Positions 41,575-64,000 of a stretch of 64,000 bases of DNA are shown piece by piece (within the stretch, counting starts at the first letter, position 1; each line of letters starts with the position of its first letter). The notes under the pieces are model-generated. The model was not told the DNA's origin. It ran no database searches and was given only the letters and a program-made list of their open reading frames with translations. Source of the DNA: Verrucomicrobiales bacterium (GTDB lineage Bacteria > Verrucomicrobiota > Verrucomicrobiia > Verrucomicrobiales > DEV007); contig JARGOZ010000018.1 of NCBI GenBank assembly GCA_029213025.1, forward strand, positions 1 to 64,000, in the 5' to 3' direction. Position numbers and translations under genes: made by a program.

Positions 41575-41639
41575 ACAGGCACTCTTGCCTGTAGCGATGC
41601 GGGAGCCGTCGTGCCAGCCCACAGGCAGGAGTGCCTGTG
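41575..41639. repeat. Pair of inverted palindromic 18-bp units
   Basis: Unit 1 (ACAGGCACTCTTGCCTGT, 41575-41592) and unit 2 (ACAGGCAGGAGTGCCTGT, 41621-41638) are each palindromic with 7-bp arms and 4-nt loops. Unit 2 is nearly the reverse complement of unit 1 (one mismatch in 18). They are 28 bp apart, so they can also pair with each other. They lie between two divergent genes, 48 bp from one start and 76 bp from the other. A half copy occurs at 29085. Confidence 0.8.
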
Positions 41640-41714
41640 ACACATCCACGCCGCCCCGATTGCGGAGCGAAATTCCCGGCCCTTCCAATCAATTTCCTCT
41701 ATTCTGTTTTTGGT

Positions 41715-42818
41715 ATGAGAATCATAGCTCTGTTGCTTGTTTTGTCCGTTTCAATCGGAATTTGCGAAGAACCGCCTCCTCTTCCCGGCGATGATTTTGA
41801 CATGGTCCAGCGCCTGCACAAGCGCGCCGTAAATTCCGCGAAAACTTCGAAACTCATCGACTACACATTCACGTACGACAGCACCGACCCCGAGCCTAAA
41901 ACGAACGAAATCGAGATGGTGGCTATCAAAGGGGGAACCTTTACGATGGGCAGCAAAGGCAGAGGCAAGCCCGATGAATCGCCACCTCACAAAGTGCGGG
42001 TGTCACCATTCTGGATGGGAAAATACGAAGTTACCTGGGATTTGTATGAACCCTTTATGTTTACGCGCAACCATCGCAACCGCTACGGAAGCCCGACCCA
42101 AATTCCACCTGGCGCGGATGACGCATTTGTTGTATCCAAACCAACGACTCCCTATACCGAAATGAGTTTCGGTATGGGCGTAAACGGCTACCCGGCGATC
42201 AATATGACGCAGCACGCCGCCAGCAAATTCTGCCAGTGGCTCAGTGCGAAAACCGGGCATTTCTATCGACTGCCCACCGAGGCGGAATGGGAATACGCCT
42301 GCCGGGCCGGAACTACAGGACCCTTTAGTTGTCCGCAGGGGAAAATTCACGAATATGCAGTCTGCGAACCGAATATAAACAACCCGCTCCTCGTTGGCTA
42401 TGCTCCGGTAGGCACAAAGAAACCCAACCCCTGGGGGCTCTATGATATGCATGGCAACGTGATGGAGTGGTGCCTCGATCAATACAATTCTTTAACCTAT
42501 AGAATGCGCCCTCAAGGTAGAGATTTGATCGTCGATCCGTGGATTCGGGCGAACCGCGTTTACCCGAGAGTAGCGCGCGGCGGCTCGTGGTATGATCCAC
42601 CGGAAGACTGTACTTCTACAGTCCGGTATTTCTCCGATCCCGACTGGAAAATGGCGGACCCTCAACTACCGAAATCAATCTGGTATCATACCGATGCGCA
42701 CTGGCTCGGGTTCCGGATTGTGCGTCCTTTCGAAATCCCGTCTGCGGAAAAAATGGATACTTACTGGAACAGTGCCCACCCCGACCGGATAGAGAAAGAG
42801 GAATCGGAAAATGAGTAG
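41715..42818 (+). CDS. Formylglycine-generating-enzyme-like (SUMF1/FGE-sulfatase) secreted protein
   Basis: This 367-residue protein has a signal peptide (MRIIALLLVLSVSIGICEE) and a single SUMF1-type domain from about residue 70: MVAIKGGTFTMGSKGRG, YEVTWDLYEPF, RLPTEAEWEYACRAGT, LYDMHGNVMEWCLDQY and RVARGGSWYDPPEDC, ending LGFRIVRP. True FGE enzymes convert a sulfatase cysteine to formylglycine; most secreted bacterial members are not proven to do so. No sulfatase gene is in the window. Function is therefore uncertain. Confidence 0.88.
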   Translation: MRIIALLLVLSVSIGICEEPPPLPGDDFDMVQRLHKRAVNSAKTSKLIDYTFTYDSTDPEPKTNEIEMVAIKGGTFTMGSKGRGKPDESPPHKVRVSPFWMGKYEVTWDLYEPFMFTRNHRNRYGSPTQIPPGADDAFVVSKPTTPYTEMSFGMGVNGYPAINMTQHAASKFCQWLSAKTGHFYRLPTEAEWEYACRAGTTGPFSCPQGKIHEYAVCEPNINNPLLVGYAPVGTKKPNPWGLYDMHGNVMEWCLDQYNSLTYRMRPQGRDLIVDPWIRANRVYPRVARGGSWYDPPEDCTSTVRYFSDPDWKMADPQLPKSIWYHTDAHWLGFRIVRPFEIPSAEKMDTYWNSAHPDRIEKEESENE

Positions 42819-45877: not shown

Positions 45878-45985
45878 AATTCATCGTTTGTGACGAATGT
45901 GTTCGCGGTGATGAACTGTCAAAGGCCGGATTCCTTCCTGTCTTTCACGTTCAAATTATCGAATCTTATGATATCGTGCCTTCGA

Positions 45986-48370
45986 ATGACCGATTTCAGC
46001 CGCAGATCAATTCTATCGAATCTGGCAGTTCTCCTTTCCATCGCAATTCTCACTACATCCCGTGGTGAAGACTCCAGCGAAAAAAGCCCGGGCTCTGATG
46101 TCGTTCTGAGTCTGGACAAACAGAAGGTAATTTGGGACGGTGAACACTGCGCGTTTTTGATCGAAACCCATTTTGGCAAACCTTTGCTCAGCGAACTTCG
46201 GGAACAGAAGCTCGAATCAGTTAGACATCGATGCTGCGACGACTTTTCCGGATCGGTTTTGCAGCGAACACAACCGCAGCCAAAAACGGCAGGCAATGTG
46301 ACAGAAATCAATTTCCCGAAGGGGTCGGAAACACGGGCCGTGAACCCTGACGAATTTTGCGAAGCTTTATTGAAGAGATTTGCCGGTTTTTCAGAGATCA
46401 AACAGACCGGGCTCCGGGCTCTGAAAACAAAAAGTGTCGAAGACGGAAAAGTGTGGACGTGCAGGCTCATGATCAGTGTTTCGGGCATTGCTGCCGACGG
46501 GCGCATGTACGAATCAGTTTCCGAGCACGATGTCGATTTCCAGGTTTCCGCCGATGATGACTTTAAAAAAGACCTTCAGGAAAAGCCGGTCATCCTGCGT
46601 TGGAAAGATGTAAAAGAGGCGAACCGGTATTCCGAAAACCTTCTACTGACAGAAGTGACAGCCGGGGCGGGTCTGAACCGGTTTTCACTTCCTGATAACT
46701 GGATTAACACGGAATACTCCGAGCAATACTGGTTCCAGTTCGGGGTTCATGATTTCAATCTCGACGGTGTCAACGACATCGCAGTGGCTACCACTGAAGG
46801 AAGAATCCTGCTGCTTAGCTCCCTGAACGGGCAACCGTTTGCCGACTACGCCCAACAATTAGGGATAGCAAGTCATCCCCATCCAACGAAAAACTTCACC
46901 TTTCTCGTTTCCTGGATCGACTATGATAACGATGGATTTGCCGATCTGTTCGCCGGGGACCGGCTGTTCCACAATGAAGGAGGGAAATACTTTGTCGACG
47001 TGACTATACCATCAGGGATCAGGGTACCCTTCCTCGCCATGGGCGCGACTGTGGCGGACTTCGATTGCGACGGATTACCGGATCTGTACGTCTGTGCCCA
47101 AAGACCGTCGAGTGTTAGTGGGAAAAGCTCAAAACCGGCTTCCTGGGTGGGCGATCATGAAAACGGAGGCATCAACCAGCTATGGCGCAACCTCGGGGAC
47201 GGACGCTTCGAGAATATCGCGAAAAAGGCGGGCGCAACCGGCGGAAGGAGAAAAAGTTTCGCCGCCTCAGCCTTCTTTTATGATGATGACCATTTCCCCG
47301 ATCTCTATATAGCCAACGATTTCGGAGAGAATGTCATGTTGCGAAACCGTGGCGACGGAACTTTTGAGGATATCACCAAACCTACCGGAACAGGAGATTT
47401 CGCAACCAGTATGGGAGTCTGTGCCGGTGATATCGACAATGATGGTAAGGCAGAGCTATACGTAGCCAATATGTTTTCGAAAATGGGTCGGCGAATCATT
47501 GCCAACGTCTCGGAAGCGGATTATCCACCGGGAATTTACCAGCAAATCAAAGGGTCGTGTGCCGGAAATAGACTCTATCAACTCCGGGAAGGTGAAACTG
47601 TTTACCGGGAACTCAGTGAAGATCTCCATGTCAATAAAGTCGGCTGGGCCTACGCGCCGGCAATGGGGGATTTTAACAGAGACGGCTGGCTGGATTTGTA
47701 TGCCACTACAGGGTTTTTGAGTAGAAACCGCGGCAAACCCGACGGATGAACCTGTCTCTGGAGGGCTGTCGTGTCACAGCCCATGAATTGCGGGAGCATA
47801 AATCCAGTCCTCGGAGCGATTGACAAAGAGAACGGTGAGTTTTGGGTGGAAAATCCTTTTCAACTGGCGCAGCACGATGAAAACCTGAGTGCTTACGAAA
47901 AGAACCGCCTGTTTCTGAACAACGGCAAAATGGAATTTGTCGATGCCTCCTTTTGTTCCGGTGCGGATCTCGATTCCGATTCCCGTTCGGCTGTAGTCTC
48001 CGATTTCGATCTCGACGGGAAACCGGATTTGCTGGTCGGATCAGCGGGTGGCGGAGCGCTGCGATTGTTTCGCAATACCTTTCCCGACGAAAACAACTGG
48101 ATCCGCCTGCGCCTGCAGGGAACGACCTCCAATAGATATGCAATAGGTTCGAGAGTGGTTTTACAAGTCGGCGAACGCAAAATTGTCCGCGACCTTTTTC
48201 CGGTAAACGGATTCCAGGGACAGAGCCCCTGCGAACTCCTCATCGGTATTGGTAAATCAGACTTTATTGATCAGTTAACCATTCGATGGCCCACCGGAGC
48301 GATGCAATCCTACCAAAAATTGCCAAGCGATCAGACCTACCGGATCACCGAGGAAAAAAAGCCGTGGTGA
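45986..48370 (+). CDS. CRTAC1/UnbV-type FG-GAP protein with in-frame TGA, candidate selenoprotein
   Basis: Read through one TGA (47747-47749) this frame gives 794 residues plus the recoded codon's residue counted among them. The N-terminus has a twin-Arg-like signal (SRRSILSNLAVLLSIAILTT). FG-GAP/VCBS repeats run from about residue 245 (HDFNLDGVNDIAVA, DYDNDGFADLFAG, ADFDCDGLPDLYV, GDIDNDGKAELYVA, GDFNRDGWLDLYA). After the TGA the frame continues with TCLWRAVVSQP, another FG-GAP (SDFDLDGKPDLLVG) and a C-terminal ASPIC/UnbV domain (NWIRLRLQGTTSNRYAIGSR, LTIRWPTG). The domain order is that of a complete CRTAC1-family protein, so the TGA interrupts an otherwise intact gene. UGA-T-C would make a U-x-C pair. 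A hairpin lies 13 nt after the TGA. The alternative is a nonsense mutation. A start at 45968 is also possible. Confidence 0.75.
47763..47782 (+). promoter_or_regulatory. Candidate bacterial SECIS hairpin
   Basis: GGGCTGT (47763-47769), a CGTGTC loop and ACAGCCC (47776-47782) form a perfect 7-bp stem with a 6-nt loop. The stem starts 13 nt after the in-frame TGA and the loop 20 nt after it. A G is the second loop base. Reported bacterial SECIS elements have their apical loop about 16-37 nt after UGA and a G in the first two loop positions, so this fits. It is inside the coding frame, as bacterial SECIS elements are. Confidence 0.6.
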
Positions 48371-48673: not shown

Positions 48674-51600
48674 ATGAAAAAGCGATCCTTACTTGACAAG
48701 ATTCTGCCACAAAACAAATCGGAAAAGGAGGACACGCAACGGGAATATATAGCTGAACAGTTGGAATCCAGAATTCTCTACTCCGGTGCCCCGGCCCCCG
48801 CTGAAGTCCCCGTGCAAGAGGTGGTTCAGGATTCATCGGGGGAATCTCCCGGGTTCGAAGGTGTTGAAAGTTTTACCGGCCCGGATCATCCGGTTATAGC
48901 TGATCAATCAGCGAGTGAAACGCTGAATGAGATTGTGACCTTAACAAGTCTCGACAACCTCTCGGCGGACGAAATCGACTACCTGGCAAACGCAGCGGTG
49001 GAGCGTTGGAAAGCAGCCGATCTCTCGGCGGAGCAGTTAGAAGCACTCGAGGCGATTGAAATTTCTATCCTTGATATCGAAGGGTTGGCTATCGCGGAGA
49101 CAAATGGCTATGACATCGAGCTCGATTTAAATGCCAATGGATCCGGCTGGTTTATCGACTCGACCCCGTTTCTTGATGAAGAATTTGACTATGCAGAAAG
49201 CTCAACTGTCTTCCGGGATACCGATGGAGATGCGCAGCACGGCATAGATCTTCTCACTGTGATGATGCACGAAATGGGACACGTGCTGGGTATGGAAGAT
49301 ATCTATGAGTCCGCTCAAGAGCATAACTTGCTCTACGGCGGCTTTGAAGAGGGAGTTCGGAAATTGCCTGTCGCCGGTCAGGCGGATGGCGCCGCGGCGG
49401 GGTCTCAGTCCGATGCCCATGCCAGTATTACGGTGACCAACTTACTTGATGATGATGGTGCGTCAGGTACTCCTTCGCTGCGAGATGCCATTAATCAGGC
49501 TGTATCAGGTGAAACTATAACTTTGGTAGATGGTCAATATGTGATCTCAAAAGTTTCGACCAGTGAAAACGGAAATCTAGACGGTGACTTTGATATCAAT
49601 AACAAAAATATCACAATCGTCGGCGCCGGAAAATGGGACTCAACCCTGATGACAGGCACCCTTATCGACGCACAACAAATCGACCGCGTTTTTCACATCC
49701 TTGGAACATCGAATGTAACGCTCCAAGACATGACCATAACAGGAGGTCTGGTTACCGAAGGAAACGGAGGCGGAATTCTTCACGAGGGAGGAACTCTGAT
49801 GCTGGAAAATGTAGCCATCGACAGTAATGAGGTGCAGGACACGGTAGACAACAACACTAACGCTCTGGGAGGCGGTCTGTATAATAACAACCGAACCCTG
49901 ATCGCCACGAACACTGACTTTACCAATAACAAAGCAACCAGAAACGGTGGCAACGAAACGGCCGGTGGCGGTGGTCTGTTCAGTAGTGGAGGATCAGCTG
50001 ATGTGACCATAACCGGGGGAACGATTTCAGGAAATACGGCCCGTGACGGCGGCGGCCTCTATATATGGAGTCAGGGAGCAACGGCAACACTGGACGGTGT
50101 GACGATTACCGCGAACCGAGGGGACAATACGGGAGGCGGATTCCGGTTTCATGACGGTGCAACTATCGATTTTGTAAATGGTGCTACCATCACGGATAAC
50201 ACAGCGCACAATTCCGGTGGCGGTGGCTATATCTCCGCGGCTGCTACCGTTAACATGAATGACGGCAGCGCGATTACAATCACAGGAAATAAAGTCGCCG
50301 ATGCGGCGGGAACGACAATTCGAGGCTCCGGCGGAGGATTTTATGTCCACGAAGGCAGTCAACTGAGCATCGACAACGCCACTATTCAGGGTAATACAGC
50401 TGATGAAGGCGGTGGTTTCTATATCATAAGAAGGGATTCGACTATAGACATCAGCAACTCGACCATTTCGGAAAACTTTGCCGAGGTCCGTGGAGGTGGT
50501 TTCCGCTCAGCCCAGGAGGGAACGATCGTTAACATGACCAACACAGTGATCTCGGAAAATACTGCCGAGACAGAACACGGTGGTGGATTTTATAACGTCG
50601 GTGACGTGAAGTTGACCGGAGTAACCATTTCGGCGAACCACGCAGGAATCGGCACCGGAGATCGCGGGGGCGGCTTCTACAACACGTTGGGTAACGTGAC
50701 CATCATCGGAGACAGCAAGATTATCGACAACTCAGCCACCGAACACGGGGGCGGATTTTGGAACAGGAACGGAACCGTTACGATCACAGGAACGGACACT
50801 GAGAAAATCGAGATTCAGGGCAACAAGGTTGGGGTCAGTAATGCGGGAACAATCCTGGGCAACGCCGGTAATGGAGCGGGATTTTGGTCCTCCGACGCCT
50901 CGACCTCGAAATTAACTCATGTCGATCTGATTGGCAACATCAGCTCAGAAAACGGCAGTGGTGTCCTCAACGGAGTCGGTGCCGGTGCCTACATTACCAG
51001 CGCCAGCCAGGTAGAGCTGACCGATGTAACTATCGACGGACACACGGCGAACGAAGGCGGGGCTTTTTACATCTCTGATCCTCATTCTAAGTTGACGGGA
51101 ACCAGGGTTAGCCTGGATGACAACACGGCCCGAACCAGGGGCGGCGCCTTCCGCGTGGCCCAAACATTTGCAACTGTCGAACTGACCAACTCGACGATCA
51201 ACAATAACATCGCACAAAACGAGCACGGCGGCGGTTTTTACAACAATGGAACGGTTTCTCTGACTAACACGTCAGTAGACAATAATCAGGCCCTTGATCT
51301 TGTGACCACCGGTATCAATCTCGACGGGACCGACGGAATATTGTATCGCCGGGCCAGCTACGGCGGCGGCTTTTACAATGGCGGGGGATCGGTCAGCTTA
51401 TTGGGAAGCTCCACAGTGAAGGATAATGATACCTATGGGCATGGGGCCGGTTTTTATACATCCGGCGGTACCGTTACAGCTGCAGGAACAGTTATCAGCG
51501 GCAATGAAATTTTACGGGACCTCGCTGTAGCAGCATCCACAGCGGATGGTGATACGATTAGACATGGCGCTGGTTTTGCCAGTTTCGGCGACGGAAACGT

Positions 51601-54600
51601 AAACCTCACTGACGTAACGATTTCGGGAAATAAAACTGGCATTGATACCGGCGATATCCTGAGGGGTTCAGGTGGAGGTTTCTACAATCAGGATGGTTCC
51701 ACTGTCAACATAAGTGGAGATAGCCAGATCATAGGAAACCATGCCCAGGAGGGCGGCGCCTTCTATAACACTTCAACCGGTAGCACAGTGGAGATAACGG
51801 GCACTACCGGAAACGCAATTGAAATTGGCACCCAGACAGATCCCAATGTCGCAAGAGTCCGGGGGGGCGGGTTCCGCTCCACAGGAAATACCAACGTAAA
51901 TTTGTCGTATGTAGATATTAGCTTCAATACGGCCGAGGGCGAAAGAGGTGGCGGCATTTATGCTGACGGCGCTCACATCGTTGGTGATAATGTATCTATT
52001 ACCAACAACGCAGCTATTGATACCGGTGGCAGTCGCGAAGGTGGAGGGTTGTTTCTCTCCGGCAACGGTCTCACCGAGTTGACCGACAGCACCATTTCCG
52101 ATAACTCCACCAATCACCACGGGGGCGGTTTCTACCTCGAAAGCGGCCAGATCGATTTGGCTGCCACCACCATTAGCGGAAATTTCACTAATAATTCAGG
52201 GGCCGGCTATTTTGTGACCGGTAACGGTATCGTGAATCTGACGGATAGTTCGGTTACCAATAATATCGCCCATGACCATGGTGGTGGTTTTTACTCAGCC
52301 AGCGATTCAAAAATCACGGCCACACGCTCGAATATCGATGGCAATCTGGCCGGACACAGCAACGCTACCACCCGTGATGAAAGCGGCACCAGTGGAATTG
52401 GGGGTGTTGCCCTGGGCGACGACCTGCGTGGCGGTGGATTTTGGGCCTCCGAGCGGGCCAATATTACCCTGATCGATTCAGCCCTTACCAATAATGAAGC
52501 TGCACGATACGGAGGCGGGGGAAATCTGGAAAACGAGGCTACCCTTACTCTTCTGGGAAGTACTGTGAGCGGCAACGTTGGTGATCAGCACGGTGGCGGT
52601 TTTCGGATTGCCTCGAATGCGCATCTCTATGCTACCAATTCTACGATAAGCGGAAACTATGCCGGCTTTGTCCGGGCTGAAAACAGCGGAGTGGTGAAGG
52701 CCAACTATGATGGCCGGTACGGTGGGGGGATCTGGGTCCAGAGCAGTGGTAATCAGGTCATCCTCAATCACACTACCGTGACCAATAACTTTGGCACTTC
52801 CGGAGGGGCGGCAGGAGGTGCCGGAATTTACCGAAGCGCGGGATTCATCCAGGCAGAGAACAGCATCATCTATGGCAACATTGCCGATGCGGATCTTGAC
52901 GCGGCTTCACAGGACGCAAGTGACATGCGCGGCGCGATCACTCTGATTGGCGCCAACGTCCTGGGAACCCACAATAACGGTACGGTTACCCTGGCTGAAG
53001 ACGCATTCAGAATCACAGCTGACCCGGGCCTTGCTGCTCTGGCCGATAATGGCGGCGTGGCCACCCCTGGTGGAAACGTACAAACCCATGCCATTACCGG
53101 TTCCAGTGTAGCAGCCGATGCGGCCGTCAATTCCAGGGTCAGCACCGATCAGCTCGGGAACGGGCGACTGCCAGGGGCATCTGCGGCTACGACTTCCGTC
53201 CTTTCAGATATCAACGGTGCGGACCTCCTCACCGACACCACCAACGTCACCATGGGAACAGCCCGGACCACCACTGTGGACGGCACATCCCTCGATTTTA
53301 ACGCCGGTTCTGCCACTAATGAAACGCTGTTTGACGTCGCCGTCGCACAGGCAGGTACTCTGGCTGCCGGTGATCTGATCACGGTTACCGTGACTCTGGA
53401 TTACACCCGCCCAAGCGGTGACCATGACCCGGCATTTATTTTGACTGATGGTTCGACCAATTTGACCATCTCAACTTCGGATAATGCTCCGGGCACAGTC
53501 AGTGGAAACGGCACTCTGTTTACCGGGACTCACCCGGCCAACGGAGCCGCTTCTCAGATCGTGTTAACCTATACGTTCTCCGACGCCGGTAACCGTCTCG
53601 GCGCAGCGGAAGGCGGCAAGTCGGGATCCAACAGCGGGACTGCCAGCTTGAACGCGGCCAATGGACTTACCTGGCGTATGCGCGGAGGTAATGCGGGTGA
53701 GCTTTTTCAGGTGGATAAAGTTTCTGTCAGTTACGACGTCATCTCCGGCACCAGCGATATTGGTGCCTTCGAAGTTGATCCGGTCACCGACACGCTAACC
53801 CTGGATACCATTACCATCCCGCAAAACGCAATTGTTACAGATGGTGCTTCTTCAGCAACTGTCGAATTGAGCGCCGCAGCAACCAGCACCGGTGCGGGCC
53901 CCCTTAACTACGACTGGACGGCAACCGCACCGGATGGCAGCGATCTGGCCGTGACCGGCAACGGAACGTCCGCTGCCAGCTTCGCCTACGGTCCGTCTGC
54001 GGATAACCCCGTCGGGTTTGTCGATGTTTCGCTCACGGTCACTGATGCGACCACCGGGCAGTTGGTGACGTCAGAAGTGCACCAGGTCCGCTTTGTGGAC
54101 CCTAACGTCACACCCGCCACATTCACTGCCGGTACGATAGAAGTCGACACGCTTGGCGATGAAAATGACGGAGTTCGTCTCGACTACAACACCGAAACAG
54201 CCGATTTTAACGTTGGCCAGATTCTCACCGGAGCAACGACCGGAACTCAGGCAACGATTATCAGTGTGACTGACAACGGGGCGGATGGCACCCTGGTTCT
54301 GGAAATGATCCCGAACACCGGTACCGGGAATTTTGCCTCTGGTGAAGCGATCACCGATGATGGAACGACTCCGGGAGCTGCGCTTGCCGCCTCAACCCTC
54401 TACGACATCACTTTGCGCGAGGCCATCAATATGGCTAACGCGAGTGGCGCGGGGAACTTTGAAATTACGTTCAATGCGGGAGTTACCGATGCTAGTTCTA
54501 TTCAGTCTTCTCTTACCTACAGGGAACTGAATTACGACTCCCAGAACGGCACTGATTTTATAGTTGGAGAAATCATAACCGGAGCATCTGACGGAACTCA

Positions 54601-57600
54601 GGCCACAATCATTGACATCATTGGAGATAGCGGTGGTTCCGACACTACAGGTCGACTGGTGCTTGAAATCATTGGCGGCACCGGCGACGGAGACTTTAAT
54701 AACAACGAATCCATTAGCGCCCCCTCGGGTTCAACCGCATTAGCAAATGGCAGCCTGTTCCAAAGTTACAACTCCGGCTACGACTATGACATTACTAAAT
54801 CAAATGGAATGCTCGTCATAAATGGCAACGGTCCCGCTTATACGATCATCGATGGCAACGGCGTCGACCGGGTCTTTGATATACGTCCCGACGCATCCGT
54901 GATTTTTAAAGATCTCACTATCCAGGGCGGTGCCACAACTTTGACCGACGGCAACAGTGAGCACGGAGGCGGAGTGAAAAATGAGGGCGGAATCGGTATC
55001 TTCCAGGGCGTAACTATCAGCAACAACAGTGCCGCAGCCGGCTCAAACGCCGGTCAGGGCGGAGCCATCTACACTACCAGCAGCGGGCGCAGCAATGGAC
55101 TCATCCTGATGACGGACAGCCTGATCGAGAACAATTCTTCCGAAAGTAACGGTGGTGGTATCTATATGGCAGGCACCAATGTCGGTGAAAGTCTACTCTA
55201 CCTCAAGGATACGGTTATCAGAGGTAATACCGCTGCGTCAGCGGGGGGGAATTTGGATGATCGCCGTGGTGGAGGTTTTTACATCACGGATGACGGCAAC
55301 AAAATTGTCTTCGATAATGTGACAGTGTCAGATAACCTGACCAACGGTCGGCATCGCAACGATGGAGGTGGAGGGGCATTTACCGGTGCAGATCATACCA
55401 TTGAAGTCACTGGAGGTTCATTTATCCGCAACAAAGCAGGACAGGATACCAACGGTAGCGACTCTGACGGAGGTGGTTTTTGGTCCGGCGCGACACGGAG
55501 TCAATTTACGTTTGATGGAACTGAGATCGGTGGTGCACTGGATGGAAGTGGCAATGTTGATTTGGGCAACACATCAGAAGACGACGGAGGTGGTTTCTAT
55601 CTCGAAGGCCGCTTTAATACTTACGATTTCGTAGATGTAAAGATTGAGGGAAACCGTTCTTACGACGGAGGCGGAGGCTTTTTCGTTGCCAACGATTCTG
55701 AGACCTTGCATTTCGTTCAGACAGCAACCGGAAATTCCTATATTAAAGACAATTACTCGGAAACTGAACACGGCGGCGGCTTCAGAAATGATGGCGTCGT
55801 ACATATCAACACAACCGACTCCAAAGGCAATGCATCGGTAGGTGTATTTACGATTTCGGGAAACCAGGCTCGTACCAACGGAACGTTACTCCTGCCGGAT
55901 GGCACCGGCTCAACCAATGCCGACCGGATTGGAGGCGGCTTTTATGCGACCTCGAATTCTGAAACAAATCTTCAGGATGTTGTACTCGAAAACAATATCG
56001 CCAACCGTCGCGGGGGAGCTTTTTATGCCGCTGGCGGATCAGTCGTCAACATAACCTCTACATCGGCTTCTACATCGGGCGACGACTCCTCTTTTGTATC
56101 AAAAATTCAGAACAATCATACGGTAGATCTCAATGACGGTGATGGAGGTGGATTCTATGTATCCGGTGCCAACACCAGAGTAAACCTTACCGACGTCCTT
56201 GTGGACAGTAACACGGCATCCGATGATGGCGGTGGATTTCTTTCCCAGTCGAACAACAGTCATACCTCTCTAACCAGGGTTGATCTAACCAACAATGTCG
56301 CGCTTGACAACGGGGGCGGCTTCTACAATGAATCGCAAAGCTCCAGGGTCTCTCTCGACACCGTCCAGATCGATACAAACCGTTCGACCACATTACACGG
56401 TGGGGGATTCCGCAATAACGGTATCGTAGAGGGTAAGCTCGTAACGATAACGAACAATTCCGCCAACAACACCACAGACGGGCTTGAGAACACCATACTT
56501 ACCAACAACCAGGACAGGATTGGTGGAGGTTTCTACAACTATCAGGGAACAGTAACCCTGGAAGATGCGATCATCGAAGACAACCGCGCATACAGCCGCG
56601 GAGCAGGTATCTTCAATCAGTCCGGAGGGATCGTGATAATTACGTCCAATACGATCCGTTCCAGCATTTCCAATAATCTGATTGATCAGAACTCAGACCA
56701 AAACAACCAACAGTGGAGAAACTTCGGAAGCGGGGCCGCGATCTTTCAGGAAAGCGCGGGTAGTATGTTTGATCTAACGGGCGTCGACATCGTCGGCAAT
56801 ATGGCAAAAGATGACGGCGGCGGTATCTTCATGACCAGTGACGGATCCAGCGGCAGTCTTACCGATGTTCTGATTCAATCAAACCAGGCCGGCGACGAAG
56901 GTGGTGGTATCTATATAGCTTCCGGAGGCATCACGTTGACTCTGAGTCATGTCGCAATCATCGGAAATATGTCGGAAACTATAGTCGGAGCACTGCGTCC
57001 TGACGACCAGAGCCTGACGCTGGGCGACAGTGGTCATGGTGGCGGTATCAGCAACCGGGGTGTAATCATCGGCGACAACGTTACCATATCAGGCAATAAA
57101 TCCGGAGTAAGCGATGTTGCTGCCGGTAACGACAGTAACAATGTAGGAGGCGGAATTTACAGCACTGGAACCAGTGCCCGGGTCCAGTTAACCAACGCGG
57201 CGATTACAGACAACGAAGCGTACGGTCGTGGCGGCGGCGTTTACAATGCGGAAGGTATCCTCGAACTGACCGACTTTGTGGTTTCCGGCAACTCGGCCGA
57301 TCAGGGAACCAGCGAAAGCCAGGGTCGCGCGGGCGGTATCTGGAACAGCGGAAACGGTGATGTAACCTTGACGGGAGGCCTCGTCAGCGATAACAAATCG
57401 TTCGGTCATTCCGGAGGTATTCATAACCAGGACACCGGTTCGACGCTGACGATTTCAAATGTGACCTTAACCGGAAACACCGCCGGCTATGATGTGAATG
57501 CGGGAGCATTCGTCGACAACCGGGTCGCCGGCGCACTGTGGGCGCTGAGCGGCGGGGCTGCCAATGTGACATTGACTCACAGCACGGTTACCAACAACCA

Positions 57601-60600
57601 TACCACCAGAAACGGAACAGACAGTGGTGCGGGTATCCGAATCGATAACGGCGGAAAAAAAGTCATCGTGAGCGACAGCATTATCTATGGAAATCGGCGC
57701 GACGTCGACAACGCCGGAGGTGTAGTGGAAGATATCGATAATAACATCGGCGCTGAACTGATATTTGAAGGAACCAATATCGTCGGCACAACGGCCGGAA
57801 CAATCAGTGGAGGTACGATTCTTCGTGACGACCCGACTCTCGACACCCTGGCGGACAATGGCGGCCCTGCAGTGGGAGCAACGCTAACCACTACAAGTGG
57901 AGCGGCGAGTGCTAATACTGATTCGCAGACCGCGATTATCCAAACCCATTCGTTTCAAGCAGGAAGTGCCGCCACCAACGCAGCCGCCAGCACGGCTTCT
58001 GCTACAGTAACGACTGATGCCAGAGGATTTGACCGTCCAGCCGGTGACACCAGCGACCTCGGTGCCTACGAGCGTTCGGTTCCAACTTTGAATGTGACTG
58101 CTACACCTACGTCCATTGCGGAGGGCGCCACAGTTACATTGAGCGGTGATATACTTTACGATTTATTTGGCTCAGATACAGTGTCAGAGGTCGTCCTGAC
58201 GGTTGACTGGGGAGACGGCACGGAAGGATACGTTGAGCACTTTCCCGAAACGACAGATTTTGCGGCGACGACTCCTGATATCAATCTCGATCATATCTAC
58301 GGGTATGGTACAGACGGGCAATTCACTTTAACTGTATCGCTCCAGGACGCAGTAAACGGCCCTGTAGTCTCTACGGCAACATTCACTGTAAACGTAACTG
58401 ATACCGAAATCACCGTGATGCTGAACGGCGAAGACCTCACTGCTTCGACTACCGAAGATGACACGGTGACCATTGATCCATTTGACACCACAGGCGGTAC
58501 GGCAACTCAAATTGGAGATCTCAGTATACCTTTCGGCGATTTGAATGCCACCGGCAACCGCATGGGTTGGTCGGTAGATGTTTCCGGTGATGTGGCGGTA
58601 ATCGGCGGGGAAGGCCGAGACGGGGAGGAAGAAGTCTGGGTGTACCGTCTCAATAGCGGGACGAGTGAATGGGAGCTGGAGCAACGCCTCAAAAACGACG
58701 ACATCACCCAATTTGACGACTTCGGCTATGCTGTCGCAGTCGTTGATGACGGCGTGAATGAACGCATTTTCGTCGGTGCTCAACTGGATGACACGGGAGG
58801 CAGCGATAAAGGTGCCGTTTACTACTACAGATTCAACGGCACTGACTGGGTCATGGAACAAAAGATCCAGGGCGCTACCGGACATGACAGTGGCGATTAC
58901 TTTGGTGCCTCATTAGCGGTGACTTCCGATGGACAATATCTTGCAGTTGGAGCTCCACGCGAAGACTCTGATTCACTGACGGATTCAGATGTGGGCGGCT
59001 CCAACGATTCGGGCGCCGTATTTCTATTCTCCTTCGATGGAGCGGACTATGTGCAGGAGGACAAGGTTAAAGCTCAACTCACAGCCGGAGTGATCGATAA
59101 TCAGGGAGGAGATCAATTTGGCCAATCCGTGGCTATCGATGGCACGACTCTTGTGGTGGGCTCAGAGCTTGAAGACATAGGCGGTTCAAATTCCGGAGCG
59201 GCATGGGTCTACATTCGAAATGCCGGGACATGGGATTTGGAGCAGAAGATCGACGGCGGAACCGGTATTGATGCGGATGATCGATTCGGATACCGAGTCG
59301 CGATCAGCGGCGACACCATTGCGATCGGAGCCCGTCTCGCCGACACAGGGGGTAGTAATACCGGACAGGTAAACATTTTCACCCGGACAGGCGGAGTCTG
59401 GACTGAAGCACAGGTCATCGGCGATGCCGACGACGGAACTATCTCAGACAGTGATACTTTCGGCACATCCGTATCCCTTGATGGTAACCGACTCATCATC
59501 GGGTCTCCGGCGGAAGATAATCCTACCAATAGCGGCGCAGCCTATATTTTTGACCGCGCTGATGCAAGCTCAGCCTTTACTCTGACCGGCATTCTCAATG
59601 CCGACGACGAGACCGCCAGGGATTCTTTCGGCTGGTCTGTCGCGGCAGATGGCGAGAACTTCGTCATTGGGGCACGCCAAGCCAACTTGACCTATGATAT
59701 CGATGCGATCAACCAGATCGAAATTCCCGATTACGGAGCTGCCTACATATTTTCCGGAACAGGGTCTCCGACCCAGGTGGGAACCCGCCTTGATGGAGAT
59801 TTCGCCAACATCACCCGCCTGACTCTTGAAACCGATTATGGACGGCGAGTTGCTATTGAGGGCGATTTCGCGATCGTCGGTCAACCCAAAGGAGCGAAAG
59901 ATCCAGCCAACGCTGACGAGCGGACCGGCCAGGCCCACGTTTTCCGAAAAAACAACAACGGCACACCCGGCAATGCTACCGATGATACGTGGGATCTTAT
60001 TGCAACGCTTGCTCCTCCGACAAACGCAGATGATAACGATGACTACTTTGGCTGGGGCGTAAATATATCCGCTGATGGTTCAGTCGCTGTGGTTACCGCC
60101 ATCTACGATGACAACCCCAGCAATTCGGGAGCCCTCTATGTATTTGAACAAAATGCCGATGGTGATTATGACTACCAGGGGCGGATTAAATTAACGGATG
60201 CAACCAGCAATGACAACCTGGGCCGTAAAGTCGACATCAGTTCCGACGGCAAAGTCATTATTACAGGTGTCCCGGGAGATGATGACGGAGGTAGCGGCTC
60301 CGGATCGGCAGTCATCTACGACGTCAGAGATACCGGGACTTATCCCAATGGATGGAGCAGTTTCTTCACCAGCGTCAATATTGCTTCAGATGGAGTGAAG
60401 CTGCTCCCCTCTCTCGATGTAACCAGCACGGCATCTGATCAGTTTGGCTATGCGGTAGCGATTGACGCCACCGGTAATAGAATCGTTGTCGGAGCCTGGG
60501 ATGATGACTATCCGACTGATGACAATTCAAACAACAACAGTCGAGATCGTGGTTCTGCCTACGTGTACGACTGGGACGGAAGCAACTGGGTAATGTCGCA

Positions 60601-63600
60601 GAAGATTTTTGCATCCAACAACGGTAAAGACGACCGCTTCGGTCGCGATGTCGATATCGATGGTGATGTCATAGTTGTCGGAGCCTATACAGAAGATTCC
60701 AGCAGCCCGGCTGGAAACAACAACAGCGTGGGCGATTCAGGAGCGGCCTATGTATTCGAACGGAATAATACCACAGGGCTCTTTGAAGAAGTCCAAATCC
60801 TAAAGGCGATTGACCGTTCGGGTAGTGATCAATTCGGAATCAATGTAGCTATAGATGGGAATGACATCGTAGTTGGAGCCTTTGTCGAAGACACAGGCGG
60901 CAATCAGGCGGGCTCCGCCTATGTATTCCGCAAAGACGCGTCTGCCGCCGCCGGTCAACAGTGGGTCACCACCGATGTATTGCGAAACCCAAATCAGAAC
61001 GGAGTAACTGTCGATCAATTCGGTCTCGCTGTTGATGTCAGCGATGGAATTGTCATAGTGGGTGCACCAAACGATTCATTCACTTTGCCTAACGGGGTGG
61101 AAGCAGTCAATTTCGGATCGGTATACTCGTATGCTTTGGATCCAGACAGTGATCCAACATCCGCAGCAAATAATCCCGGAATCGTGGATCAGGGTGCTCT
61201 TTTTGTGCCTGATGAAGCTGATCTCGCAACAGCCAACCGCATCGGTTACGCCGTTCATATCGATGGAAACCTCGCCATTGTTGGCAGCGAAGGACTGGGC
61301 CACCAGGAAGAAGTCTATATCTACCGGGACACCACCGGTAACGGCGACTGGGTTCTCGAGAGCACCCTGTTCAATCCGGCCGCACTAACCTCGGGAGTCG
61401 ATCAGGATCAAATCGATGATTTTGGACAGTCTGTATCCATTATTGACAGCGGAACTGTCGACGGAATTGGAGACAGAGCTTTTGTCGGTGCACGACTGGA
61501 AGACAACGGAGGAACGGATAAAGGACGGGTCTACTTCTATGAATTCGACGGAACCGACTGGGTATTGAAACAGCAAATTATCCAGGGTAATTCCGGGGAT
61601 GATTTTGGCTGGGCGATGGCAGCCGACGGTGATTTCCTCGCCGTGGCAGCCCGCCTCGAAGATGCAGACACTGATGACGCTGCCGACACCGGCGGGGCAA
61701 ATGACTCCGGAGCGGTTCTCACTTTCGTTTACAACAGCGGCACCGGTGAATATGATCTGGTTCAAAAAATCAAGCAAACCGATGAAACCGGAACCCTTGA
61801 TGTTTTTACCAGTGATCAGTTTGGCTCCTCTGTGGCGATTGACAATGGCACCCTTGTCATAGGTCAGGAGTTGGAGGATTATGACGTGATCGGTGGCACT
61901 AATGACACTGCCAGTAACTCCGGGGCCGCGTATGTCTGGGTCTGGAACGCGACCACATCGACCTTCGATTTCGAAGCTAAACTCAAATCGTCTGACAGCC
62001 AGGCTGATGACCGGTTCGGAGTCAAAGTGGACATCAGCGGTGATACAATTGTAGTGGGAGCCTCCCAGGAAGATACCGGCGGCTCCAATACCGGTTCGGC
62101 CTATGTTTTCACCCGCACCACCGGTGTATGGACCGAAAGCCAGAAACTCGGTGATGCAGATGCCGCCAGGATTTCCGACGATGACCGCTTCGGGCATTCC
62201 GTAGCTATCGACGGCAACAGAATTTTAATTAGCGGCCGCCTTGATGATACGTCAGGCAGCAACTCCGGCCGGGTATGGGTATTTGAGCGGGCGGACTCCG
62301 ATCTGGCTACGCCTTTTGTCATAGCCGATATAAATGGTATAGCCGCTTCGGGCACGGAGGCACGGGATGAATTCGGCTACCATATCGCGATGGATGGAGA
62401 TAGATATCTAATCGGTGCCCGCCGCGCAAACGTCACGCTCACGATTGATGATGCGACGAAGGAAACGATCAACATTTCCGATTGGGGAGCAGCCTATGTA
62501 TTCGAAGCAGGAAGCGGTGGTGCCGTAACCGAGCAACACAAGTTTGATGGCGATATTCAGAATAAAACGGAAATCGGATCAACATCTGAATACGGACGCC
62601 GGGTAGTTATCAGTGGCGACTACGCAGTAGTGGGAGCTCCACGCGGAGGAAAAGGACCTAACACAGGTGATGAACGCACTGGTCGCGCCTATGTCTACCA
62701 TCGGGAAGATATGGGTACCAACGATACCTCTGACGATCAGTGGACGCTTGTCTCTGAGGTAGCTCCTCCCACCACCGATGATGACTTTGATGATTACTTT
62801 GGACAGGGAATCGACATTTCCGAGGACGGAAAGGTTCTCGCTGTGGGAGCCTACAATCACGAAGGGGCCGGTGGCGGCACGGATCGCGGAGCGGTCTACA
62901 TCTATGAACTGAACGCAACCGGGGATGGATACGATTTACAGGGTCGTATTCGACCTTCAACCATTGCAGGCAACAATACAAACGACCTCGAATTCGGTCG
63001 AAGCGTGACGTTAAACGAAGACGGCAGCGTGCTCGCTGTAGGCCGGTGGCTCGATGACAACGAAGGAGTCGCCACTAATGTCGGCGCGATTTTCCTCTAC
63101 GATGTTACCAGCCAGGCCGGAGCCACTTCCTCCGCAAAATGGGATACATTCCTGCAGGCCAACGGAACTGTCCAAAATGGAATCGACTACAGCGTAAATG
63201 ACGACGGCATCCATATCGTCGGTGATACGGCTGATGATCGTTTTGGCCGCAGCCTGGCGCTAAGCGGTACCACCCTCGTAGTAGGTGCCTACAATAACGA
63301 TACCGGCGGCAGCAACAGGGGCATGGCTTACGTCTTCGATCAGGATAGCGGTGGAGCCGGAAGCTGGGGACTTACTCAGGCTTTCCAGGCTTCAGATGCC
63401 GGCAATTCCGATCAGTTTGGTATCGATGTTGATATCGATGGAGACAAAATCATTGTGGGCGCACAGGGGCAGGATGCCAGCTATTCCGGCAGCACCGATA
63501 ATTCCCTCGGCGATTCCGGCGCGGCCTATATATTCACCCGGAGCGGAGCTGCTGGAACTGCGACCTGGACGGAAACGCAAATACTCAAAGCAAGCGTTCC

Positions 63601-64000
63601 CGGTGGTGGAGATCAATTCGGATTCTCCGTTGGAATTGACGGTGACATTGCCGTTGTGGGTGCCTACCTAAACGACAGCGCCTCGACAAATGCCGGAGCC
63701 GCCTACGTTTATCAAAATGATGCTGGAACCTGGAGTGAAATCAGTACGCTGCTTTCGCCGAACGGCGATACCAACGACAACTTCGGCCGGGCTGTTGATG
63801 TAGGAAACGGTTCCGTCATCGTGGGTGCACCGAGAGCTGACCGTACTCTCGCAGGCGGAATCGTGAACAAGGAATTTGGCGCGGCTTATACCTACCAGGT
63901 GGTTCCGGTTTCAACTGCAGGCAATACATTGACAATTGCTTCGGTCGATGATCCAAACACCCATCTGACTACCGGAAGCATAACGACAGACGGGTCTACG
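48674..64000 (+). CDS. Giant modular surface protein (LEPR-XLL-like, metalloprotease-like, beta-helix, FG-GAP), 3' end beyond window
   Basis: A single open frame runs 15,327 bp (5109 codons) to the window edge without a stop. Residues 1-60 hold a basic start and LESRILYSGAPAPAEVP, a variant of the LEPR-XLL motif of giant PVC surface proteins. HEMGHVLGMED at 199-209 fits a zinc-protease HExxHxxGxxD motif, followed by GFEEGVRKLP as in related giant proteins. A first beta-helix follows SLRDAINQA (about 270-1500), with dozens of GGGFYN-like turns, and ends in a DIGAFEVD closing motif near 1695. A PKD-like linker and LREAINMANAS lead to a second beta-helix (about 1910-3130, closing SDLGAYERS). A VDWGDGTEG PKD-like domain then leads to 28 FG-GAP units. 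No classical signal peptide is visible. Likely a secreted adhesin or cell-surface protein; a C-terminal anchor or sorting domain would lie outside. Confidence 0.92.
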   Translation, partial: MKKRSLLDKILPQNKSEKEDTQREYIAEQLESRILYSGAPAPAEVPVQEVVQDSSGESPGFEGVESFTGPDHPVIADQSASETLNEIVTLTSLDNLSADEIDYLANAAVERWKAADLSAEQLEALEAIEISILDIEGLAIAETNGYDIELDLNANGSGWFIDSTPFLDEEFDYAESSTVFRDTDGDAQHGIDLLTVMMHEMGHVLGMEDIYESAQEHNLLYGGFEEGVRKLPVAGQADGAAAGSQSDAHASITVTNLLDDDGASGTPSLRDAINQAVSGETITLVDGQYVISKVSTSENGNLDGDFDINNKNITIVGAGKWDSTLMTGTLIDAQQIDRVFHILGTSNVTLQDMTITGGLVTEGNGGGILHEGGTLMLENVAIDSNEVQDTVDNNTNALGGGLYNNNRTLIATNTDFTNNKATRNGGNETAGGGGLFSSGGSADVTITGGTISGNTARDGGGLYIWSQGATATLDGVTITANRGDNTGGGFRFHDGATIDFVNGATITDNTAHNSGGGGYISAAATVNMNDGSAITITGNKVADAAGTTIRGSGGGFYVHEGSQLSIDNATIQGNTADEGGGFYIIRRDSTIDISNSTISENFAEVRGGGFRSAQEGTIVNMTNTVISENTAETEHGGGFYNVGDVKLTGVTISANHAGIGTGDRGGGFYNTLGNVTIIGDSKIIDNSATEHGGGFWNRNGTVTITGTDTEKIEIQGNKVGVSNAGTILGNAGNGAGFWSSDASTSKLTHVDLIGNISSENGSGVLNGVGAGAYITSASQVELTDVTIDGHTANEGGAFYISDPHSKLTGTRVSLDDNTARTRGGAFRVAQTFATVELTNSTINNNIAQNEHGGGFYNNGTVSLTNTSVDNNQALDLVTTGINLDGTDGILYRRASYGGGFYNGGGSVSLLGSSTVKDNDTYGHGAGFYTSGGTVTAAGTVISGNEILRDLAVAASTADGDTIRHGAGFASFGDGNVNLTDVTISGNKTGIDTGDILRGSGGGFYNQDGSTVNISGDSQIIGNHAQEGGAFYNTSTGSTVEITGTTGNAIEIGTQTDPNVARVRGGGFRSTGNTNVNLSYVDISFNTAEGERGGGIYADGAHIVGDNVSITNNAAIDTGGSREGGGLFLSGNGLTELTDSTISDNSTNHHGGGFYLESGQIDLAATTISGNFTNNSGAGYFVTGNGIVNLTDSSVTNNIAHDHGGGFYSASDSKITATRSNIDGNLAGHSNATTRDESGTSGIGGVALGDDLRGGGFWASERANITLIDSALTNNEAARYGGGGNLENEATLTLLGSTVSGNVGDQHGGGFRIASNAHLYATNSTISGNYAGFVRAENSGVVKANYDGRYGGGIWVQSSGNQVILNHTTVTNNFGTSGGAAGGAGIYRSAGFIQAENSIIYGNIADADLDAASQDASDMRGAITLIGANVLGTHNNGTVTLAEDAFRITADPGLAALADNGGVATPGGNVQTHAITGSSVAADAAVNSRVSTDQLGNGRLPGASAATTSVLSDINGADLLTDTTNVTMGTARTTTVDGTSLDFNAGSATNETLFDVAVAQAGTLAAGDLITVTVTLDYTRPSGDHDPAFILTDGSTNLTISTSDNAPGTVSGNGTLFTGTHPANGAASQIVLTYTFSDAGNRLGAAEGGKSGSNSGTASLNAANGLTWRMRGGNAGELFQVDKVSVSYDVISGTSDIGAFEVDPVTDTLTLDTITIPQNAIVTDGASSATVELSAAATSTGAGPLNYDWTATAPDGSDLAVTGNGTSAASFAYGPSADNPVGFVDVSLTVTDATTGQLVTSEVHQVRFVDPNVTPATFTAGTIEVDTLGDENDGVRLDYNTETADFNVGQILTGATTGTQATIISVTDNGADGTLVLEMIPNTGTGNFASGEAITDDGTTPGAALAASTLYDITLREAINMANASGAGNFEITFNAGVTDASSIQSSLTYRELNYDSQNGTDFIVGEIITGASDGTQATIIDIIGDSGGSDTTGRLVLEIIGGTGDGDFNNNESISAPSGSTALANGSLFQSYNSGYDYDITKSNGMLVINGNGPAYTIIDGNGVDRVFDIRPDASVIFKDLTIQGGATTLTDGNSEHGGGVKNEGGIGIFQGVTISNNSAAAGSNAGQGGAIYTTSSGRSNGLILMTDSLIENNSSESNGGGIYMAGTNVGESLLYLKDTVIRGNTAASAGGNLDDRRGGGFYITDDGNKIVFDNVTVSDNLTNGRHRNDGGGGAFTGADHTIEVTGGSFIRNKAGQDTNGSDSDGGGFWSGATRSQFTFDGTEIGGALDGSGNVDLGNTSEDDGGGFYLEGRFNTYDFVDVKIEGNRSYDGGGGFFVANDSETLHFVQTATGNSYIKDNYSETEHGGGFRNDGVVHINTTDSKGNASVGVFTISGNQARTNGTLLLPDGTGSTNADRIGGGFYATSNSETNLQDVVLENNIANRRGGAFYAAGGSVVNITSTSASTSGDDSSFVSKIQNNHTVDLNDGDGGGFYVSGANTRVNLTDVLVDSNTASDDGGGFLSQSNNSHTSLTRVDLTNNVALDNGGGFYNESQSSRVSLDTVQIDTNRSTTLHGGGFRNNGIVEGKLVTITNNSANNTTDGLENTILTNNQDRIGGGFYNYQGTVTLEDAIIEDNRAYSRGAGIFNQSGGIVIITSNTIRSSISNNLIDQNSDQNNQQWRNFGSGAAIFQESAGSMFDLTGVDIVGNMAKDDGGGIFMTSDGSSGSLTDVLIQSNQAGDEGGGIYIASGGITLTLSHVAIIGNMSETIVGALRPDDQSLTLGDSGHGGGISNRGVIIGDNVTISGNKSGVSDVAAGNDSNNVGGGIYSTGTSARVQLTNAAITDNEAYGRGGGVYNAEGILELTDFVVSGNSADQGTSESQGRAGGIWNSGNGDVTLTGGLVSDNKSFGHSGGIHNQDTGSTLTISNVTLTGNTAGYDVNAGAFVDNRVAGALWALSGGAANVTLTHSTVTNNHTTRNGTDSGAGIRIDNGGKKVIVSDSIIYGNRRDVDNAGGVVEDIDNNIGAELIFEGTNIVGTTAGTISGGTILRDDPTLDTLADNGGPAVGATLTTTSGAASANTDSQTAIIQTHSFQAGSAATNAAASTASATVTTDARGFDRPAGDTSDLGAYERSVPTLNVTATPTSIAEGATVTLSGDILYDLFGSDTVSEVVLTVDWGDGTEGYVEHFPETTDFAATTPDINLDHIYGYGTDGQFTLTVSLQDAVNGPVVSTATFTVNVTDTEITVMLNGEDLTASTTEDDTVTIDPFDTTGGTATQIGDLSIPFGDLNATGNRMGWSVDVSGDVAVIGGEGRDGEEEVWVYRLNSGTSEWELEQRLKNDDITQFDDFGYAVAVVDDGVNERIFVGAQLDDTGGSDKGAVYYYRFNGTDWVMEQKIQGATGHDSGDYFGASLAVTSDGQYLAVGAPREDSDSLTDSDVGGSNDSGAVFLFSFDGADYVQEDKVKAQLTAGVIDNQGGDQFGQSVAIDGTTLVVGSELEDIGGSNSGAAWVYIRNAGTWDLEQKIDGGTGIDADDRFGYRVAISGDTIAIGARLADTGGSNTGQVNIFTRTGGVWTEAQVIGDADDGTISDSDTFGTSVSLDGNRLIIGSPAEDNPTNSGAAYIFDRADASSAFTLTGILNADDETARDSFGWSVAADGENFVIGARQANLTYDIDAINQIEIPDYGAAYIFSGTGSPTQVGTRLDGDFANITRLTLETDYGRRVAIEGDFAIVGQPKGAKDPANADERTGQAHVFRKNNNGTPGNATDDTWDLIATLAPPTNADDNDDYFGWGVNISADGSVAVVTAIYDDNPSNSGALYVFEQNADGDYDYQGRIKLTDATSNDNLGRKVDISSDGKVIITGVPGDDDGGSGSGSAVIYDVRDTGTYPNGWSSFFTSVNIASDGVKLLPSLDVTSTASDQFGYAVAIDATGNRIVVGAWDDDYPTDDNSNNNSRDRGSAYVYDWDGSNWVMSQKIFASNNGKDDRFGRDVDIDGDVIVVGAYTEDSSSPAGNNNSVGDSGAAYVFERNNTTGLFEEVQILKAIDRSGSDQFGINVAIDGNDIVVGAFVEDTGGNQAGSAYVFRKDASAAAGQQWVTTDVLRNPNQNGVTVDQFGLAVDVSDGIVIVGAPNDSFTLPNGVEAVNFGSVYSYALDPDSDPTSAANNPGIVDQGALFVPDEADLATANRIGYAVHIDGNLAIVGSEGLGHQEEVYIYRDTTGNGDWVLESTLFNPAALTSGVDQDQIDDFGQSVSIIDSGTVDGIGDRAFVGARLEDNGGTDKGRVYFYEFDGTDWVLKQQIIQGNSGDDFGWAMAADGDFLAVAARLEDADTDDAADTGGANDSGAVLTFVYNSGTGEYDLVQKIKQTDETGTLDVFTSDQFGSSVAIDNGTLVIGQELEDYDVIGGTNDTASNSGAAYVWVWNATTSTFDFEAKLKSSDSQADDRFGVKVDISGDTIVVGASQEDTGGSNTGSAYVFTRTTGVWTESQKLGDADAARISDDDRFGHSVAIDGNRILISGRLDDTSGSNSGRVWVFERADSDLATPFVIADINGIAASGTEARDEFGYHIAMDGDRYLIGARRANVTLTIDDATKETINISDWGAAYVFEAGSGGAVTEQHKFDGDIQNKTEIGSTSEYGRRVVISGDYAVVGAPRGGKGPNTGDERTGRAYVYHREDMGTNDTSDDQWTLVSEVAPPTTDDDFDDYFGQGIDISEDGKVLAVGAYNHEGAGGGTDRGAVYIYELNATGDGYDLQGRIRPSTIAGNNTNDLEFGRSVTLNEDGSVLAVGRWLDDNEGVATNVGAIFLYDVTSQAGATSSAKWDTFLQANGTVQNGIDYSVNDDGIHIVGDTADDRFGRSLALSGTTLVVGAYNNDTGGSNRGMAYVFDQDSGGAGSWGLTQAFQASDAGNSDQFGIDVDIDGDKIIVGAQGQDASYSGSTDNSLGDSGAAYIFTRSGAAGTATWTETQILKASVPGGGDQFGFSVGIDGDIAVVGAYLNDSASTNAGAAYVYQNDAGTWSEISTLLSPNGDTNDNFGRAVDVGNGSVIVGAPRADRTLAGGIVNKEFGAAYTYQVVPVSTAGNTLTIASVDDPNTHLTTGSITTDGST
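49427..53175 (+). repeat. First beta-helix repeat region of the giant gene
   Basis: The encoded stretch (residues about 252-1500) is made of short units built around GGGF/Y (for example GGGLYN, GGGFRF, GGGFYN) followed by a Val/Leu-rich strand (VTLTDVTIS-like) and an Asn-rich turn (NNTA-like). Unit lengths are mostly 20-45 residues. This is the pectate-lyase-like right-handed beta-helix pattern seen in choice-of-anchor Q-type surface proteins, opened by an SLRDAI motif. Confidence 0.8.
54403..58068 (+). repeat. Second beta-helix repeat region of the giant gene
   Basis: The encoded stretch (residues about 1911-3132) repeats the layout of the first helix: an opening LREAI motif, then GGGFY/GGGI-type units with Asn-rich turns, then a closing SDLGAYE motif. 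The two regions share their architecture but not long identical DNA, which suggests an old duplication. Confidence 0.78.
58507..61178 (+). repeat. FG-GAP block, copy 1 (14 units)
   Basis: Fourteen FG-GAP units of about 55-65 residues each follow the pattern DxFGxxVAIDGDxxVVGAxxxDxGGSNSGAAYVF. Marker variants, in order, include the EEEVWVYR unit, the VNERIFVGAQLDD unit, a long DSDSLTDSDVGGSNDSG insert, an IDAINQIEIPDYGAAY insert and a DERTGQAHVF unit. The same order returns in copy 2. Confidence 0.8.
61179..63900 (+). repeat. FG-GAP block, copy 2 (14 units)
   Basis: Fourteen FG-GAP units parallel copy 1 one by one: QEEVYIYR for EEEVWVYR, IGDRAFVGARLED for VNERIFVGAQLDD, a DTDDAADTGGANDSG insert, a DDATKETINISDWGAAY insert, and DERTGRAYVY. 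The last unit (ADRTLAGGIVNKEFGAAY) matches the last unit of copy 1 (NDSFTLPNGVEAVNFGSVY). The copies are clearly diverged in sequence. Confidence 0.78.

Follow-up and report, generated by a model that had tools for sequence, protein, structure and literature searches.

The window, a 64,000-nucleotide stretch of a Verrucomicrobiales genome, carries a gene of the CRTAC1/UnbV family whose frame passes through a single internal TGA that is proposed to encode selenocysteine (Sec). The features of this gene, in window coordinates, are the following.

45986..48370 (+), predicted Sec-containing CRTAC1/UnbV-family gene, 794 residues, with Sec at 588
45986..46066 (+), N-terminal signal-like segment MTDFSRRSILSNLAVLLSIAILTTSRG, with a low-confidence helix at residues 8-22 in the structural model
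46103..46633 (+), N-terminal alpha+beta domain, residues about 40-216, from the secondary structure of the model; weakly NTF2-like
46643..48085 (+), FG-GAP beta-propeller, residues about 220-700, CRTAC1-like by Pfam (FG-GAP_3/FG-GAP) and Foldseek
47747..47749 (+), candidate Sec codon TGA, residue 588, the only interruption of the frame
47747..47776 (+), helix 588-597 of the AlphaFold2 model, with Sec at its N-terminus
47753..47755 (+), Cys590, the putative U-x-C partner
47763..47782 (+), SECIS-like hairpin, stem 47763-47769/47776-47782, loop CGUGUC at 47770-47775 with G second
48140..48340 (+), UnbV_ASPIC domain (PF07593), residues 719-785, made only with readthrough of the TGA

Translation of 45986-48370 yields 587 sense codons, the TGA as codon 588, another 206 sense codons and a terminal TGA at 48368-48370; the 588 and 207 codons given in an earlier note on this DNA describe the frame exactly, with each stop counted. 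The ATG at 45986 is a plausible start, and in-frame starts also exist upstream (GTG at 45890). FG-GAP repeats detected with Pfam precede the TGA, and beyond it Pfam finds an additional FG-GAP repeat as well as a UnbV_ASPIC domain (E = 7e-16), where the note had placed them; both families score above the Pfam cut-offs (FG-GAP_3, 141.7 bits; UnbV_ASPIC, 56.2 versus 23.4). PHROGs and NCBIfam returned no informative match for the gene, no NCBIfam selenoprotein model matched, and neither an Rfam search nor ARAGORN produced a match over the window.

The AlphaFold2 model of the protein (mean pLDDT 84, pTM 0.87) comprises the alpha+beta domain, the propeller, and the helix of which Sec588 is the first residue. 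Murine CRTAC1 (cartilage acidic protein 1; 9etn) ranks first in the PDB both in the sequence-profile search (E = 5.6e-28) and in Foldseek (E = 1.7e-27, TM 0.71 on the target), with a TMq of the window protein to CRTAC1 of only 0.50. Both proteins possess the FG-GAP propeller and the UnbV/ASPIC region; unlike the window protein, CRTAC1 has no Sec and no N-terminal alpha+beta domain in the match, and the insert that bears Sec is without counterpart in human or mouse CRTAC1 in the profile alignment. The weak NTF2 likeness derives from a Foldseek match to 3er7 (E = 4.6e-3), in which the matched region is not localized. The N-terminal segment presumably acts as an export signal.

Selection on the coding sequence is similar on both sides of the TGA, with Ka/Ks between close relatives of 0.07 to 0.11 before it and 0.07 to 0.09 after it. 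The equally low values downstream exclude decay, and the 120 independent relatives that bear the same TGA exclude a sequencing error, which had been named as a threat to the proposal. The residues that follow (TCLWRAV), which the note had read as a normal extension of the fold, are conserved in relatives and purifying selection continues; the UGA lies in frame inside conserved coding sequence. A true stop, whether in a pseudogene, through a sequencing error, or between two genes of which the second would be the 199-aa ORF that does exist from GTG 47771, is contradicted by the recurrence of the TGA, by the conservation of TCLWRAV between the TGA and that GTG, by purifying selection on both sides, and by the finding that relatives do not, as a rule, carry another disruption besides this one, and we give it practically no credence.

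Conservation of the TGA and of the downstream hairpin

A genome-wide search identified eight close homologues (L001-L008) in planctomycete assemblies, 43 to 56% identical to the window protein, and all eight carry TGA at the aligned codon within the motif PDG-U-TCLWRAVV. Across 144 distinct relatives aligned at exactly this site, as the earlier note had advised, the column holds TGA in 120, Cys in 4, and other residues in 20 (7 Glu, 4 Asn, 3 Ala, 2 Asp, 2 Arg, 1 Met, 1 Gln), a TGA share that is inflated and provides no population estimate, since Sec members alone went into the search profile (A1) and scoring was confined to the top two hits in each genome. Asp occupies position -2 in all 120 TGA members and Trp position +4 in 116 of them, and Trp is found at the Sec column itself in 0 of 144. 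When the profile was run against 392 genomes of the planctomycete phylum, 92 matched at E <= 1e-50, and most of the matches in these genomes contain exactly one in-frame TGA. The Cys forms are few and distant in the tree. The occurrence of Glu, Asn, Ala, Asp, Arg, Met or Gln in 20 relatives implies that a thiol or selenol is not essential in every member. These replacements, seen in the non-Sec members L149-L161, L009-L011, and L044, are unusual for selenocysteine, and several of the proteins concerned are encoded in SelA-positive genomes.

Some genomes encode more than one Sec copy. Four of the five genomes examined encode 2 to 5, the maximum of five being reached in G715, and the complete 8.9 Mb planctomycete genome G702 holds two copies of the gene. 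In L001-L003 a second Sec paralogue (PDG-U-SCIWQAVAAQP) adjoins the first, the two lying side by side (G388:C33), and in L008 a third type (DL-U-SFFWRQV) is joined to a thioredoxin-like domain. CRTAC1 proteins found on public plasmids are all distant.

The hairpin of the window gene (GGGCTGT-CGTGTC-ACAGCCC) starts 13 nt past the TGA and consists of a perfect 7-bp stem and a 6-nt loop that begins after 20 nt with G as its second base, exactly as first reported, and it falls within the published limits for bacterial SECIS elements (loop 16 to 37 nt after the UGA, G in the first two loop bases). As a single sequence, the hairpin is unremarkable (z = -1.66; 12 of 200 shuffles fold as well), and the case therefore rests on comparison across relatives. 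The SECIS rules are satisfied by 79% of the 120 TGA members, compared with 23% after synonymous recoding that keeps to the codon usage of the gene concerned and 20% at five control sites elsewhere in these genes, whereas the 24 non-TGA members satisfy them in 25% of cases against 21% expected. Furthermore, the best hairpin is centered at one or the other of two narrow registers in nearly every TGA member (i+j = 40 in 72, 45 to 47 in 38) and scattered in non-TGA members. Minimum free energy by itself does not separate the two groups (p = 0.54); position and loop rules do.

Within the clade of the window gene, the stem shows compensatory changes, such as the replacement of UA by CG at columns 21/32, seen in 6 sequences. 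The stem covariation score is 0.226, versus 0.139 +/- 0.018 for shuffled alignments (0 of 500 shuffles as high), and double-changed cells number 13 versus 5.1. Covariation is taken as support and not as proof, given that the stem bases are also under coding constraint and that the aligned sequences share ancestry; the former objection is addressed by the synonymous and non-TGA controls. The perfect 7-bp stem holds for the window gene but not for the family: only 10 of 26 sequences form the outermost pair, which leaves a common core of 6 bp. Thus, as a predicted SECIS element, the hairpin is beyond chance through its fixed position, covariation, and loop G across the 120 relatives.

Selenocysteine machinery and distribution of the family

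The assembly from which the window was taken comprises 7.9 Mb in 338 contigs (95% complete, 4.5% contamination), and the sel genes are located on other contigs. The full set that the earlier note had asked for, selA, selB, selD, and a tRNA-Sec, was recovered in this genome. SelA (E = 4e-122) and SelB (over the cut-off, 277 bits) were identified; a single Rfam match over the cut-off (57.5 bits; L081, 200-294, minus strand) represents the tRNA-Sec, whose TCA anticodon was read by eye and which ARAGORN missed. SelD (L098, G000:C303:1490-2404) contains an in-frame TGA in KTCG-U-AAK and is itself a selenoprotein. A second SelD-like gene, lacking a TGA, is present at G000:C148:70411-71328, and the tRNA-Sec of L081 adjoins an apparent cysteine desulfurase (NifS-like) gene.

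Nine further genomes carrying the Sec gene were checked, and every one of them has SelA. Among planctomycete genomes, SelA accompanies the family in 86 of 92, compared with 156 of 300 genomes without the family (Fisher p = 9e-15). Three near-complete genomes with the Cys or Asp form lack SelA, the Cys forms L112 and L114 being among those in such genomes, and in four genomes with the Asn, Met or Glu form SelA persists, so that loss of Sec at this site does not result solely from loss of the machinery. Altogether, SelA exceeded the cut-off in 239 of the 392 sampled planctomycete genomes; the Sec trait is far more widespread in this phylum than is discussed in the reviews consulted.

These data bear directly on the possibility that an ordinary tRNA (for Trp, Cys or another residue) decodes the UGA, or that the codon is reassigned, with no Sec involved. 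The non-Cys residues at the site in some members would fit such readthrough. Conversely, TGA still serves as the terminal stop of the window gene and of others, which rules out a reassigned code; the SECIS-like hairpins go specifically with TGA members; the Sec machinery co-occurs with the gene; and Trp never appears at the site among the 144 relatives and Cys only four times. Decoding without Sec is accordingly considered improbable, with only a slim chance of being right. Several independent computational lines support the conclusions that the UGA is coding and that a SECIS element and the machinery are present, and the original proposal that the UGA is read as Sec gains support from TGA conservation, the SECIS comparison, and the sel genes. 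In the proposed mechanism, ribosomes would read UGA 588 as selenocysteine, using Sec-tRNA(UCA) made by SelA, SelB, and the hairpin 13 nt downstream.

The comparative data strongly support a large family of predicted Sec-containing CRTAC1/UnbV proteins that is frequent in Planctomycetota. The sets of genomes drawn around the window's genome (G000) and around that of L001 (G388) did not overlap, consistent with a host outside Planctomycetota. Among 388 sampled genomes of the window's own phylum, only one other (G350) possesses Sec copies (L111, L117). The window gene is nested within a planctomycete clade of PDG-U types (SH-aLRT 95 to 100), which suggests that it was acquired by horizontal transfer. 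At least 8 changes between Sec and non-Sec states, in either direction, are required on the tree, versus 22.5 with shuffled labels.

The earlier note was not certain whether Sec forms of this family had been catalogued, and no FG-GAP, UnbV or CRTAC1 selenoprotein family was found in the accessible literature. The family does not belong to any of the 119 prokaryotic selenoprotein families and subfamilies of a 2026 inventory, which has no FG-GAP, UnbV, ASPIC or CRTAC1 entry (PMC13188914). The same four terms are absent from a 2022 review (PMC9312934), the deep-Sep paper (PMC12013277), ocean surveys (PMC2398784, PMC9402790), two further studies (PMC5029168, PMC1794560), and the main text of a planctomycete study (PMC4807772). 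A search of openly available full texts for selenoprotein or selenocysteine together with UnbV, FG-GAP, VCBS or ASPIC returned nothing, and the combination with CRTAC1 returned two unrelated papers. Like catalogued bacterial selenoproteins, the family combines an in-frame UGA, a SECIS-like hairpin, the Sec machinery, and some Cys homologues. Unlike characterized selenoproteins, which according to the review mostly adopt a thioredoxin-like fold, the window protein is a beta-propeller. Judged on the sequences compared here, its insertion mechanism is that of an ordinary bacterial selenoprotein, and its protein family marks it as a new Sec-bearing form of CRTAC1/UnbV. According to the deep-Sep paper, methods that rely on Cys homologues could miss families (PMC12013277), and the present one exemplifies such a family.

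Candidate partner thiols and the proposed role of selenocysteine

The distribution of thiols around Sec divides the family. Cys590 of the window protein, the partner in the U-x-C redox pair that had been proposed, is matched in 25 of the 26 members whose Sec follows Gly, and in 1 of 94 others; the motif thus holds in the clade of the window gene but not in the family at large, and a family-wide conserved Cys partner sought elsewhere in the domain was not found. UxC-type frames end 200 to 260 codons past Sec. Of 16 other members with complete frames, 14 continue directly after UnbV into a CxxC domain resembling the TlpA/ResA-like periplasmic thioredoxins, with L139 and L126 missing this fusion; unlike these many fused Sec members, the window gene has no such domain. 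Outside the clade of the window gene, the fused TlpA-like domain seems to take the place of U-x-C. Fusions of Sec and TlpA-like CxxC domains are seen in L111, L117, and L133-L147, often followed by TPR repeats, and reach about 1350 residues. The U-x-C motif is shared with thioredoxin-like selenoproteins, namely Thioredoxin-like Sec.2 (PF13192) and the SO_0444 family transporter, which differ in having an unrelated domain, whereas UxC occurs here in one clade only.

This pattern, UxC in one clade and a fused CxxC domain elsewhere, suggests an exported redox protein. Sec would be the first residue of a helix within an insert that separates blades of the propeller; a helix N-terminus is the usual setting of a low-pKa selenolate. 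Sec would most likely be a selenolate redox centre, with a resolving thiol that is either local, at +2 (U-x-C) in the window gene's clade, or, in other clades, provided by the fused TlpA-like CxxC domain, making the family one of exported selenol/thiol redox proteins. The main rival to a redox role is an inserted Sec that serves as a ligand for a metal or metalloid, or that plays a structural part in a binding protein. FG-GAP propellers generally serve as recognition modules that bind Ca, no thiol partner is universally conserved, and Glu, Asn or Asp replaces Sec in several members, all of which would suit a non-redox Sec; against it stand the predicted location of Sec at the helix N-terminus and the presence, in almost every complete member, of either UxC or a fused thioredoxin-like domain with CxxC. 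A non-redox Sec is judged the less likely reading, though a realistic one.

Taken together, the locus very probably encodes an exported selenoprotein in which UGA 588 specifies Sec, with a CRTAC1-like FG-GAP propeller and a UnbV domain, that belongs to a large family with a likely redox function; selenium incorporation, export, and redox activity would follow from this reading. We lean, with less assurance, toward the broader view that these proteins are among the most abundant selenoprotein families of Planctomycetota, exported beta-propellers in which Sec and an in-cis thiol (UxC or fused CxxC) would form a redox relay, and that they escaped notice because gene models end at the UGA and because Cys homologues, which some search methods need, are rare. 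Genes of the family are probably annotated as truncated and devoid of the UnbV domain. The fold of this probable new selenoprotein family is far from the usual thioredoxin type, and the family is widespread in a phylum for which few descriptions of selenoproteomes exist. The proposal renders testable the job of a selenium-bearing propeller outside the cytoplasm and puts forward a first specific chemical hypothesis for some of the many bacterial CRTAC1/UnbV proteins.

Two neighbors of the gene are of separate interest. Three genes upstream, an FGE-sulfatase-domain protein (formylglycine-generating enzyme-like) is encoded at 41631-42818 (+). Finally, 300 bases downstream of the gene, a single frame of at least 5109 codons (48674-64000, +) would encode a giant protein and runs off the end of the window.
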